From an uncultured marine group I thaumarchaeote (GTDB lineage: Archaea > Thermoproteota > Nitrososphaeria > Nitrososphaerales > Nitrosopumilaceae), in the NCBI GenBank assembly GCA_902578515.1, contig CACHDH010000005.1, positions 1-32,820 of the forward strand: a stretch of 32,820 nt of DNA. The letters are read 5' to 3'. Below, piece after piece: positions 7,359 through 23,844 of the stretch. A model generated the notes under the pieces. The model did no database searches and was not told the origin of the DNA. It saw only the letters and a list, made by a program, of their open reading frames with translations. Within the stretch, counting starts at the first letter, position 1. Each line of letters begins with the position of its first letter. The position numbers were made by a program, and so were the translations under genes.

Positions 7359-8081
7359 TTACATGTACATGTTAGAGTCTATTTTTCTATGCTCTGTATA
7401 TTTATCTGAAAGTTCCTTAAAGTCAGCACCTATTCGTTTCTTCTCCTTTCTAAGATCGGCCGTATCAATATCCATACCATATGCTCTATTGACAGCATCC
7501 ACCAATGTAGCAGCAGCAAGTGGATCTGGTTCCTTATCATTTGCTTTTACTAATAGAGTGACTCCCTGAATCCTTCGTACTAGACATTCATTTAGTATAC
7601 CACCAGCAACACCGGTGATAAATCCCTGTGGTATCATTTTGATGTCATTATCTTCCATAACGCGACAAAGATCATCTTCTGCAGCGCAAAACGCCTTATC
7701 ATCATGAGTTGCACTAGCAACGCCATCTAAAATCACAATTTCATGTGAGCCTTTTTTTTCTGCCCAATCTAAAATTGTAGAGACAACATCATACAATCCC
7801 TCTGCGCGTAATGTGATTTCACATATTATTGCACAAATTGTTCCGTCACTGTTTGAGTATAAGCGGAATGGATGTCGCAATCGTCCTTGCATGAAAACAG
7901 TTGATGGAGGAAGATGTCTTGATCTAAGATATCCAATCTCTTCCATTTTGAGCTTATCAATAATATAACCCACAGATAATGGACCAACAAGTCCAGCACC
8001 CACAAAACCGGCAAATACTATCGGTGTTTTCAAAACAGTTTTTTTAATTTCAAACACTTGATCATCTGAAGGCATTTTCAT
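7359..8081 (-). CDS. PAC2-family protein / proteasome assembly chaperone homologue
   Basis: 240 aa; 'FAGFVGAGLVGPLSVGYII', 'EIVILDGVAS', 'GFITGVAGGILNEC'. Confidence 0.8.
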   Translation of the reverse strand: MKMPSDDQVFEIKKTVLKTPIVFAGFVGAGLVGPLSVGYIIDKLKMEEIGYLRSRHLPPSTVFMQGRLRHPFRLYSNSDGTICAIICEITLRAEGLYDVVSTILDWAEKKGSHEIVILDGVASATHDDKAFCAAEDDLCRVMEDNDIKMIPQGFITGVAGGILNECLVRRIQGVTLLVKANDKEPDPLAAATLVDAVNRAYGMDIDTADLRKEKKRIGADFKELSDKYTEHRKIDSNMYM

Positions 8082-8130: not shown

Positions 8131-8475
8131 CTAGTCACGATTTTTCATAAACAAATCAAGCATCGTAGTACCATTTTCCGTAATAGAGTATAGTACGTTT
8201 GCTCCAACTGGTTTTTTTGTGATGAAGTCATAGTCAAGGCAGAGGCGTAGATAGTTCAGGAATGATTTTTTCATTCTTATCTTCGATTTTGTATACAGGT
8301 CGGAGAATGTCATAGAGTTGTTGCGCACCTGATACAGGAGTTTGAGAAGCGATAAAGTGCTATAGTCACGGGTTCTGGCCTTTACCGCGCCTAGCACCTG
8401 TTCATCTCTCTGTATTATGAAGTCGTCAAACTGTTCTGCCACGTCAAGGGGAACATAGGTCAATCTGGCTCTCAT
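8131..8475 (-). CDS. winged-helix DNA-binding protein (putative transcriptional regulator)
   Basis: 114 aa; 'SLLKLLYQVRNNSMTFSDLYTKSKIRMKKSFLNYLRLCLDYDFITKK...YSITENG' matches small archaeal wHTH layout. Confidence 0.7.
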   Translation of the reverse strand: MRARLTYVPLDVAEQFDDFIIQRDEQVLGAVKARTRDYSTLSLLKLLYQVRNNSMTFSDLYTKSKIRMKKSFLNYLRLCLDYDFITKKPVGANVLYSITENGTTMLDLFMKNRD

Positions 8476-8493
8476 TACCGTACTATACGGTAA
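8475..8493. promoter_or_regulatory. perfect inverted repeat TTACCGTA-CTA-TACGGTAA at the start of the wHTH gene
   Basis: 8-bp arms and 3-bp spacer; shares base 8475 with the ATG of the minus-strand CDS; TTAATA box on the minus strand at 8501-8506, about 26-31 nt upstream of the ATG. Confidence 0.75.
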
Positions 8494-8598
8494 ATTACTT
8501 TATTAATCTTAACGTAAGTTTTTTTTGAGCTGACCTACCCATATCTTGAGCTGGGCTTGCCTAGATCTAGATTGGTTGTTTCAAGTGTAAATTTTCAG

Positions 8599-8638: not shown

Positions 8639-9574
8639 GTGGAAATTACCATTAATGCGTTATTGACAGTTGTCGGTCTAGTCTTGCTATGCTTTGGTGG
8701 TAATTGGCTGGTAAGTGGTGGTGTGTCCATTGCCAAGAAGCTTAGAATTAGTCAGATGGTAATTGGTTTAACAGTTGTAGCATATGGAACATCAACTCCT
8801 GAATTGGCAGCTAGTGTTGCGGCATCGCTAGGTTCGCACACAGATCTAATTCTGGGAAACATAGTTGGAAGTAACATCAGCAACGTGGGAATGGTAATCG
8901 GCATATCAGCAATCATCTCTCCTTTGGTAGTAAGCAAGGCAACCACAAGGAAAGAAGTTCCAATCATGATTGGCGTTATGCTGCTCTTGGTTGCAATGTC
9001 TATAGATGGAGAAATATCACAGTACGACGGAGTTTTGCTGATTGCTGGACTGATTGCGTTTACTGTTTATACAGTTTCAAGGGCTAAAAAAGAACGAAAG
9101 AAGGAAGAGGAAGATACGTCAGCTCAAAAATCATCCATGCCAAAGGCAGTGGGGTTAGTTGCAATCGGCTCTGGACTTTTGTATCTTGGAGGTTATCTTA
9201 CAATAGAAAACGTCGTGTCAATTGCACAGAGCATCGGAGTGTCGGAAACCGTAGTGGGAATAACCATAGTTGCCATAGGAACATCACTCCCAGAACTCAT
9301 CACATCTTTAATTGCAATAAAGAAGGGCCACACCGACATAGGAATTGGAAACATTGTTGGAAGCAATATTTACAACATACTTATGATCATGGGAGTAGCT
9401 TCTGTGATAACCGGCATAGCTGTTGTACCTGAGATCTTCAATGATTATATCATAATGATTGGATTTGCTGTTGTACTAATTGCATTCTTAAGATCTGGCA
9501 TAATTCCACGAGCTGCTGGAATTGGATTGGCAATTGCGTATGCAGTGTATCTTGGTTACACTTTGTTGTTCTAG
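8639..9574 (+). CDS. calcium/sodium antiporter (CaCA family, YrbG-like)
   Basis: 311 aa; two inverted CaCA repeats: 'AYGTSTPELAASVAA...GNIVGSNISNVGMV' and 'AIGTSLPELITSLIA...GNIVGSNIYNILMI'. Confidence 0.93.
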   Translation: MEITINALLTVVGLVLLCFGGNWLVSGGVSIAKKLRISQMVIGLTVVAYGTSTPELAASVAASLGSHTDLILGNIVGSNISNVGMVIGISAIISPLVVSKATTRKEVPIMIGVMLLLVAMSIDGEISQYDGVLLIAGLIAFTVYTVSRAKKERKKEEEDTSAQKSSMPKAVGLVAIGSGLLYLGGYLTIENVVSIAQSIGVSETVVGITIVAIGTSLPELITSLIAIKKGHTDIGIGNIVGSNIYNILMIMGVASVITGIAVVPEIFNDYIIMIGFAVVLIAFLRSGIIPRAAGIGLAIAYAVYLGYTLLF

Positions 9575-10251
9575 GTTCTCTTTCCCTTTGATTCCTTTAA
9601 AGACGAAATATCAAATCCTTTTGCTAATCGTATACTAGTTTTGACTTTTTTGTTTGGGTCAAACCCGTCAGGGACAACAAATTCATTCCAATCAAAAATC
9701 TTGTAAAACGATTTTTTCCCTTTTTCTAGAATGATTAAAATTTTTAATTTAGACTTATTCTCTTTAACAATTCTATTAAAGTTTAGAACTTCATAATTAG
9801 TCACATAAAATCTATTCATGTTTTTATTTTTTTTGTAAGTTTTGTGCTTGACTTCAAACACATAGTATGACTTTCCTTTTTTACAAAAAATATCTACATA
9901 GCTTAACTCGAATAGGCTGTTTCCGCTTTTCAGACTATCAATTTGCTTTTGATAATAGGATTTGCTAAAGTCAGTTGGGCGCCCCAGTGCTTTTGTGTCT
10001 CTCCCATGTTCAAAGAAGCCAATCCATTCATTTCTGTTGATTTCAGGCATAATTGATTTTCCAACGTATAGTTTGATTAAGGAAAATAGCTTCTTCCTTT
10101 TTCTAATCTTGATAACCCAAGACCGTTTTTCTCTTTTTAATTTTTCTTCGGAATAAATAATTTCATACCCTTCTTTTTCTAAAATATCTAATGCCATAAT
10201 TTCAGCATCAAAGCCTTTTTGAGAAATGGCAGACAATGTTACCATCTGCAT
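9571..10251 (-). CDS. hypothetical protein with PD-(D/E)XK nuclease-like motif
   Basis: 226 aa, Lys-rich; 'YVDIFCKKGKSYYVFEVKHKTYKK' (D...ExK) and N-terminal 'GFDAEIMALDILEKEGYEII'; 4-bp convergent overlap with the antiporter. Confidence 0.55.
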   Translation of the reverse strand: MQMVTLSAISQKGFDAEIMALDILEKEGYEIIYSEEKLKREKRSWVIKIRKRKKLFSLIKLYVGKSIMPEINRNEWIGFFEHGRDTKALGRPTDFSKSYYQKQIDSLKSGNSLFELSYVDIFCKKGKSYYVFEVKHKTYKKNKNMNRFYVTNYEVLNFNRIVKENKSKLKILIILEKGKKSFYKIFDWNEFVVPDGFDPNKKVKTSIRLAKGFDISSLKESKGKRT

Positions 10252-22562: not shown

Positions 22563-23844
22563 ACTCTTTTGGCTCAAAACCTTTTGGCAGTGCACCACGT
22601 TTACTATCTGGTTTGTCTTCAGTTTTTTCTTCAACTTGTGGTTTTTCTTCATCATAGTAACTTCTATGTTGATTATAATCTTCCAGACCTGTTACTTGTG
22701 CTTCTCCTCTAACAGTTTGGTATCCACCTGCGCTTGCACTGGTTTGATAACCAGTAAGTTGTGATGGATCAATGCCTTTTTGTTCATAATGTCCTTTTTC
22801 TTTATCTAGTTTTCTTTTACTTATCATCATCATAGCAGCACCACCTGCAGCTGCCGCACCAGCCATTCCATAGAGGATAAATGCTGGGAATTCTCCAGAT
22901 GATGTTGATGCATATCCTTCAGGTGCATTTGGTGTAACACCAAAAATTTCTGAAGTTCCTAAGACATCTCTATTTGCAAATCCAAGTATATCGATACTTG
23001 CATTACCGGATGACTCAAAGCTTGATACTCTGTATGTTTTATCGATTGTAACTGTTCCTTCACGTACCTGTTCTCTTATCAAACCTTCTCGTAGACTACT
23101 TTCACCCATTGTAAATGAGGAAATTACAGAGCCTGTTTGAAATCCATGCTGTGCAGCATCTACACCTATTCCAGTTGGATCAAACAAAAAGTGCCAGTTA
23201 CCAATTGGTTGTTCTTTTATTTCATCTCCATTCATTAGTCTAGTGGACATAATTTCTGCCGCATCACTAGCCTTCATTGACAATGCCAAAGATGGTGTAA
23301 ATCTTTCAAACGTTGAGATTGGTAAGTTGATTTCAACATCGCCATATGCTGGTGTATTTATCACAACAGGTCCAACAGCGCCAAATCCTCTCCAATCCAC
23401 ATCTATCAAAGTTGGATCGTTTCCAGAACCAGCTTTAATTACAAAATTCTGAATTGTAGGATGCAATACTATAGTATAATCTACTGACATGCTTGTACTT
23501 CTTCCAGTCATTACTGTTCTGTAATCTACGGTAAGGTCAGTAATCTGAGCTTGGCTGCCCTTTGAAAGAATGTACGAATTTATTTTTGAAATTAATGACT
23601 GTACTCCTGGGTTTGATGAATCAGCAGAAAACGACATCTCTTTTTTTAGACCATTCATCTCAGTAAGGTTTCCACCATCTGAATAGTCTATGTTAATGGA
23701 TCGTTGGTATGTCATCTTAGCAACAGCTGTATCTGAGGTAGGCTCAATTGTGACTTCCAGTTGTGATGATGCAAAAACAGGAGATATACCACTAATAGCT
23801 ATAAAAATCGATAAAAATGCAATAATTACTATAGACTTCTTCAA
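22561..23844 (-). CDS. secreted/surface protein with signal peptide, large extracellular region, one C-terminal TM and cytoplasmic tail
   Basis: 427 aa; signal-like MKKSIVIIAFLSIFIAISGISPVFA, TM 'FPAFILYGMAGAAAAGGAAMMMI', charged tail; TTG start. Confidence 0.8.
   Translation of the reverse strand: MKKSIVIIAFLSIFIAISGISPVFASSQLEVTIEPTSDTAVAKMTYQRSINIDYSDGGNLTEMNGLKKEMSFSADSSNPGVQSLISKINSYILSKGSQAQITDLTVDYRTVMTGRSTSMSVDYTIVLHPTIQNFVIKAGSGNDPTLIDVDWRGFGAVGPVVINTPAYGDVEINLPISTFERFTPSLALSMKASDAAEIMSTRLMNGDEIKEQPIGNWHFLFDPTGIGVDAAQHGFQTGSVISSFTMGESSLREGLIREQVREGTVTIDKTYRVSSFESSGNASIDILGFANRDVLGTSEIFGVTPNAPEGYASTSSGEFPAFILYGMAGAAAAGGAAMMMISKRKLDKEKGHYEQKGIDPSQLTGYQTSASAGGYQTVRGEAQVTGLEDYNQHRSYYDEEKPQVEEKTEDKPDSKRGALPKGFEPKE

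Follow-up and report, generated by a model that had tools for sequence, protein, structure and literature searches.

A radA-linked operator suggests an unrecognised SOS-like control circuit in marine ammonia-oxidising archaea

The window, by which is meant the whole stretch of 32,820 nucleotides analysed here, carries a gene for a 114-aa winged-helix (wHTH) protein, the promoter of which is the main subject of this study (Table 1). The preliminary description of this DNA had placed a 19-bp dyad between a TTAATA box and the start codon of the gene, and the dyad is present at that position, its last base being the A of the ATG (8475). On the minus strand the sequence around the site runs ...TTAATAAAGTAATTTACCGTATAGTACGGTAATGAGAGCC..., and a longer stretch of that strand, TTAATAAAGTAATTTACCGTATAGTACGGTAATG, takes in the TATA-like box, the dyad and the ATG. 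Within the dyad lie two 7-bp boxes, which together form the exact match TACNGTANNNTACNGTA (8476-8492); the last base of box 2 adjoins the A of the ATG, and a third, imperfect box, 10 bp upstream of box 1, overlaps the end of the TATA-like box. The TTAATA, 26-31 bp 5' of the ATG, probably acts as the promoter of the wHTH gene, and the TATA-to-ATG spacing, taken by itself, suggests that the mRNA is leaderless. Downstream of the wHTH gene is a PAC2-family gene that has no operator of its own and is found on the same strand in 66 of 76 wHTH loci; the gene order wHTH-PAC2-purM is stable, and thus the locus is core chromosomal rather than mobile. The divergent antiporter gene shows no sign of being an operator target. 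Two genes from the wHTH gene, at 9571-10251 of the window, is a gene for a 226-aa protein that weakly resembles Hjc, the Holliday junction resolvase of archaea (E=0.004, which does not reach the Pfam cut-off), and the region upstream of it is without an operator.

Table 1. Features of the wHTH locus, with window coordinates, and placement of the operator at its five target genes
Feature	Position	Strand	Basis
19-bp dyad (8+3+8), gene-strand reading TTACCGTA-TAG-TACGGTAA	8475-8493	.	sequence reading
Operator box 1, TACCGTA	8486-8492	-	exact match; TAC.GTA invariant across orthologues
Operator box 2, TACGGTA	8476-8482	-	exact match; conserved in orthologues
Third, imperfect box, TAAAGTA	8496-8502	-	1-mismatch match 8486-8502 and orthologue alignment
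TATA-like box, TTAATA	8501-8506	-	sequence reading; near-invariant TAATA in orthologous promoters
114-aa wHTH protein, proposed regulator	8131-8475	-	conservation, AlphaFold, fold matches
PAC2-family (proteasome-assembly-chaperone-like) gene	7359-8081	-	PAC2 E=2e-39
Divergent calcium/sodium antiporter gene	8639-9574	+	profile match; neighbour in 48/73 loci
Target 1, wHTH gene itself	site between TATA box and ATG		
Target 2, radA (Rad51/RecA homologue)	site overlaps or abuts start codon		TIGR02236 and PF08423
Target 3, 35-aa C2H2-like protein MIQCEYC...FHELLH...	site usually 4 bp before ATG		
Target 4, small CxxC...CxxH protein (64 aa) next to trpE	site about 32 bp before start, directly upstream of TATA box		
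Target 5, 128-aa protein MPKAGFKSITVSE...CxxC....CxH	site about 12 bp before start, often one mismatch		

The 114-aa protein matches no Pfam or NCBIfam family above cut-off, its weak HTH-type Pfam matches being to DUF7347 and HTH_45 (E=0.03-0.07). An AlphaFold model made from a 36-row alignment has a mean pLDDT of 81, with a core above 90 and a poorly resolved N-terminus, and displays the wHTH fold, with helices followed by a two-strand wing. Its Foldseek matches in the PDB are generic wHTH proteins (MarR/ArsR, Sso10a, AspA; best E 1.4e-3). The likeness to Sso10a, pNOB8 AspA and the MarR/ArsR repressors is one of winged-helix fold (Foldseek E about 1e-3), but the N-terminal 30-40 residues of the 114-aa protein differ from theirs, and membership of the ArsR or MarR families was rejected as no family profile scored above cut-off. 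By sequence, the closest of the solved structures is AspA, though the match is a weak one (hmmsearch E=0.11), and the context of the wHTH locus is chromosomal (PAC2, purM) and not that of a partition locus. A strongly conserved stretch of the protein, S-x-IR-x-K-x-S-x3-Y, probably sits in the putative recognition-helix region. Neither a sensor domain nor a protease was seen in the 114-aa protein, a point that weighs against the circuit proposed below.

The dyad, described at the outset as operator-like, lies far beyond chance, since matches with up to three mismatches are expected only 0.02 times per window (100 shuffles at the window's composition). The window contains one exact match, which is also the sole exact copy in the assembly of the organism's own genome (58 contigs with 690,691 bases, 58% complete); a further match, at 23516 of the window, has three mismatches, lies within a coding frame and was taken as chance. 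Orthologues of the wHTH protein occur in about half of 101 relatives, among them nearly all of those that belong to its own family. Among 80 orthologue records, taken from named Nitrosopumilus-type records, 78 have TACNGTA-N3/4-TACNGTA upstream of the gene, typically flanked by a TTAATA/CTAATA-type box on one side and by the start codon on the other, and the position of the site is unchanged over a range of protein identity from 97% to 41%, the 41-42% identical orthologues (G040, G046) retaining a site of their own. A lack of conservation at the orthologous promoters, which the preliminary description had named as part of a refutation, was thus not observed. What did not stand is the strict 19-bp perfect dyad as the recognition unit. 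The two box centre bases are C/G in 49 of the 78 orthologue sites, C/A in 12, C/C in 5, G/T in 5, G/C in 4, G/G in 2 and G/A in 1, so that they are complementary in 53 and asymmetric in 25, and an 11-bp spacing is tolerated as well. The recognition unit predicted from these alignments is instead a pair of palindromic 7-bp TACNGTA boxes, each with a free centre base and set one helical turn from the other; the perfect 19-bp dyad is one particular instance of this arrangement. As the box centres are 10 bp apart, occasionally 11, both boxes would face the same side of the helix. A third box, TA[AT][AG]GTA, is near-invariant (columns -10 to -4) across 73 distinct orthologous promoters, as is the TAATA, and neither the third-box nor the TAATA columns were among those used for site selection; the wHTH promoter is on this account probably made up of three phased boxes reaching into the TATA box. 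Palindromes of this size are able to form hairpins, but there is hardly any chance at all that the site is a fortuitous palindrome or a hairpin at the 5' end of an RNA: the low expectation and the conservation across genera refute the former, and the latter was rejected as the centre bases do not covary and the site is probably upstream of a leaderless transcript.

A genome-wide search, another check proposed at the outset, revealed two-box sites at further conserved genes, that is to say a regulon. Exact two-box sites numbered 170 in 61 genomes of the same family, compared with 18 for the reversed pattern, and in 40 genomes from other families there were 2, compared with 3. Each complete own-family genome contains between two and six sites, and complete wHTH-bearing genomes in a second sample between three and six. 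The annotated sites, in loci from many genomes, map to five orthologous genes and keep a fixed geometry there, apart from about six distinct ones that lie elsewhere (L205, L213, L318 and L322, together with L167 and L171, in which the spacer of the match is four bases long). It is almost certain that the operator and its five-gene regulon are real. The earlier picture of a single autoregulated gene was consequently too narrow: the site at the gene itself is conserved, but so are four further targets, including radA. The operator lies between the TATA box and the start in four of the five targets and upstream of TTTATAT at the small Cys/His gene. The organism's own genome shows three of the five, namely the one in the window, target 4 at C6:18092 (L178), which in this lineage is a 37-aa TCYRCGTT... 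protein, and target 5 at C14:14679 (L218, one mismatch). radA is absent from this 58%-complete assembly, and no site was seen in it at the 35-aa gene; in the nearest relative (G008) radA bears the site (L179).

The conserved gene for the 35-aa microprotein (MIQCEYC..F.E..NGLAEKTFHELLHEP.VVNK) is below the usual annotation size (e.g. L186:3022-3129, L188, L189, L194, L195) and has the operator 5' of it at each of the loci read; it is followed by a coiled-coil gene, and a Na+/H+-exchanger-family gene is oriented divergently from it. In the lineage of the organism's own genome the trpE-linked Cys/His target is replaced by a different 35-37-aa protein (TCYRCGTTGLGWNQ...; L178:2947-3060 on contig C6 and L192:3050-3157), the operator and its geometry remaining unchanged. 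Rare exact sites are also found outside the five core targets (L318 2001-2017 in G216, which precedes a gene with MTKYRTGEEAPESGIYEYAG, and L205 3001-3017 in G036), and these are possibly lineage-specific members of the regulon.

An important consideration is which protein binds the operator. No wHTH gene was found by profile search in genera g2 and g16 (five genomes), the genomes of which have 0, 0, 0, 0 and 1 exact sites, and the radA promoter of G045 (g16) keeps only the first box, the second having been lost. It might be argued that the regulon is real but that another conserved protein binds the operator, the wHTH gene being merely one of the targets, as G031 (g2) has no wHTH gene and yet keeps the radA site with one mismatch, and G308 and G323 have four sites each with no wHTH match. 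However, one of the sites in G323 is the wHTH gene's own promoter, which is directed at a contig end 48 bp away, so that the gene has evidently been cut off in the assembly; genera without the gene have essentially no sites; and autoregulation is typical of small wHTH genes that have their operator at the start codon, as here. A different binder is thus unlikely. The co-occurrence of gene and sites supports the wHTH protein as the regulator, though it rests on two or three independent losses and is not proof, and we consider it likely that the wHTH protein is the operator binder. Autorepression by this protein is the simplest model, and the fact that whole clades have lost the gene and the sites together supports it.

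The reading preferred here, with a probability of roughly 70%, is that the wHTH protein is the autorepressor of a radA regulon, acting on five targets by way of one operator and released most plausibly by DNA damage or stalled replication. The protein, probably a dimer, would place one recognition helix on each TACNGTA box in successive major grooves and would occupy the stretch that separates the TATA box from the start codon, in which a leaderless mRNA is expected to begin. A block to initiation is the simplest effect of a protein bound in this way, as it would be at four of the targets; at target 4 it would abut the TATA box. Its own gene would be shut off together with radA and the genes for the 35-aa, small Cys/His and 128-aa proteins. 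Such a signal would then free the operator, leading to the derepression of radA and the small genes, and the repressor would reset the circuit through its own operator in a negative feedback. It is probable that the bound protein represses. Archaeal activators upstream of a TATA box can recruit TFB/TBP, and the operator directly upstream of TTTATAT at the small Cys/His gene is in a position that would also suit an activator, but with the operator in the repressor position at the other four targets it is improbable that the wHTH protein activates, or acts both ways depending on position.

The control of recombination and repair genes in archaea beyond the Sulfolobales and haloarchaea is largely unknown, and the classic LexA is absent; archaea are stated in one account to have no LexA-regulated SOS (PMC1224876). 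The proposed circuit is like the LexA/RecA system in that a small autoregulated wHTH-type factor has operators at its own gene, at a recombinase gene (recA in the one case, radA in the other) and at small genes. It differs in that the wHTH protein has no protease domain (no match to a LexA or S24 self-cleavage domain in Pfam or NCBIfam at E<=1), in its operator and in having a regulon of five genes, and the best reading is of a circuit that is SOS-like in logic and unrelated to LexA in sequence. The Orc1-2/DDRE system of the Sulfolobales is likewise an archaeal damage transcription programme with a regulator that binds its own promoter, but Orc1-2 is an AAA+ Orc1 paralogue binding an ANTTTC hexanucleotide (PMC9738581), whereas the present system has a 114-aa wHTH protein and the operator TACNGTA-N3-TACNGTA and so falls outside it. 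In Halobacterium NRC-1 radA1 is the most UV-induced gene (PMC1224876, in passages that name neither an operator nor a regulator), and this provides an archaeal precedent for the transcriptional control of radA, albeit from a different phylum. Searches of a paper library yielded no expression data for this archaeal group and no paper on the regulon or the motif described here, an absence that is not proof of novelty. The radA-linked operator suggests an unrecognised SOS-like circuit in the marine ammonia-oxidising archaea, and with a specific candidate protein, an exact operator and five targets in a group that ranks among the most abundant microbes of the ocean, the question of an SOS-like response in these organisms now comes down to a few simple experiments, whilst three conserved microprotein or unknown genes gain a testable context.

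Family f9 of the same order has what appears to be a sister regulon, with TACTGTA-N4-TACAGTA-type sites in all nine of nine genomes, 51 compared with 3 for the reversed control (L214, L217, L228, L229, L231, L232, L235, L334, L354, L363). The sister motif is found at radA, PCNA (PF00705/PF02747), a family-B polymerase and SPL-like radical SAM genes, and its presence at these genes makes a genome-maintenance role more likely for both regulons; it also occurs at a small wHTH gene, at a relative of the 128-aa protein and at several TnpB-type transposon genes. Candidates for the sister regulator, compared with the wHTH protein as single sequences, gave hhalign probabilities of 19% in one case, a weak similarity, and 90% in another, and the two regulators may or may not be homologous. 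Whether DNA damage is the signal is evenly poised, and the case leans on radA and the sister family because radA is the sole obvious repair gene among the five targets. A circuit that senses metal (zinc) or redox state, with radA among several outputs, would account for the Cys/His motifs in three of the four non-self targets (CxxC...HxxxH in the 35-aa, CxxC...CxxH in the 64-aa and CxxC....CxH in the 128-aa protein). However, the regulator differs from ArsR-type metal sensors in having one invariant Cys and no Cys/His cluster, radA is consistently among the targets and the sister regulon includes PCNA, PolB and SPL-like genes, all of which make metal or redox sensing rather unlikely. There is also a precedent, in the archaeal regulators CdrS and aCcr1 that time division genes (PMC7617429), for supposing that the regulon times recombination in the cell cycle instead of responding to stress, and a long coiled-coil gene follows that for the 35-aa protein, but the targets include neither a division nor a replication-initiation gene and such timing is quite improbable. 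It falls a little short of even odds that the circuit is a genuine SOS-like damage regulon of ammonia-oxidising archaea, in which a hitherto undescribed wHTH autorepressor acts on radA and tiny zinc-motif genes, that it arose in evolution without a link to LexA or Orc1-2, and that a sister version in another family of the order controls radA, PCNA and PolB as well as photolyase-like genes and was taken over by transposons of the TnpB type.

The viral contigs contained no relative of the wHTH protein and no matches to the sister motif, and the 32 exact two-box pattern matches in them were without archaeal target context and look like chance. In G119 (L352, L356, L357, L358) several copies of a TnpB-type (Cas12f1-like_TNB) gene are preceded, at a distance of 33-52 bp, by the sister operator, which looks as though the transposon had come under the control of the host repair regulon.
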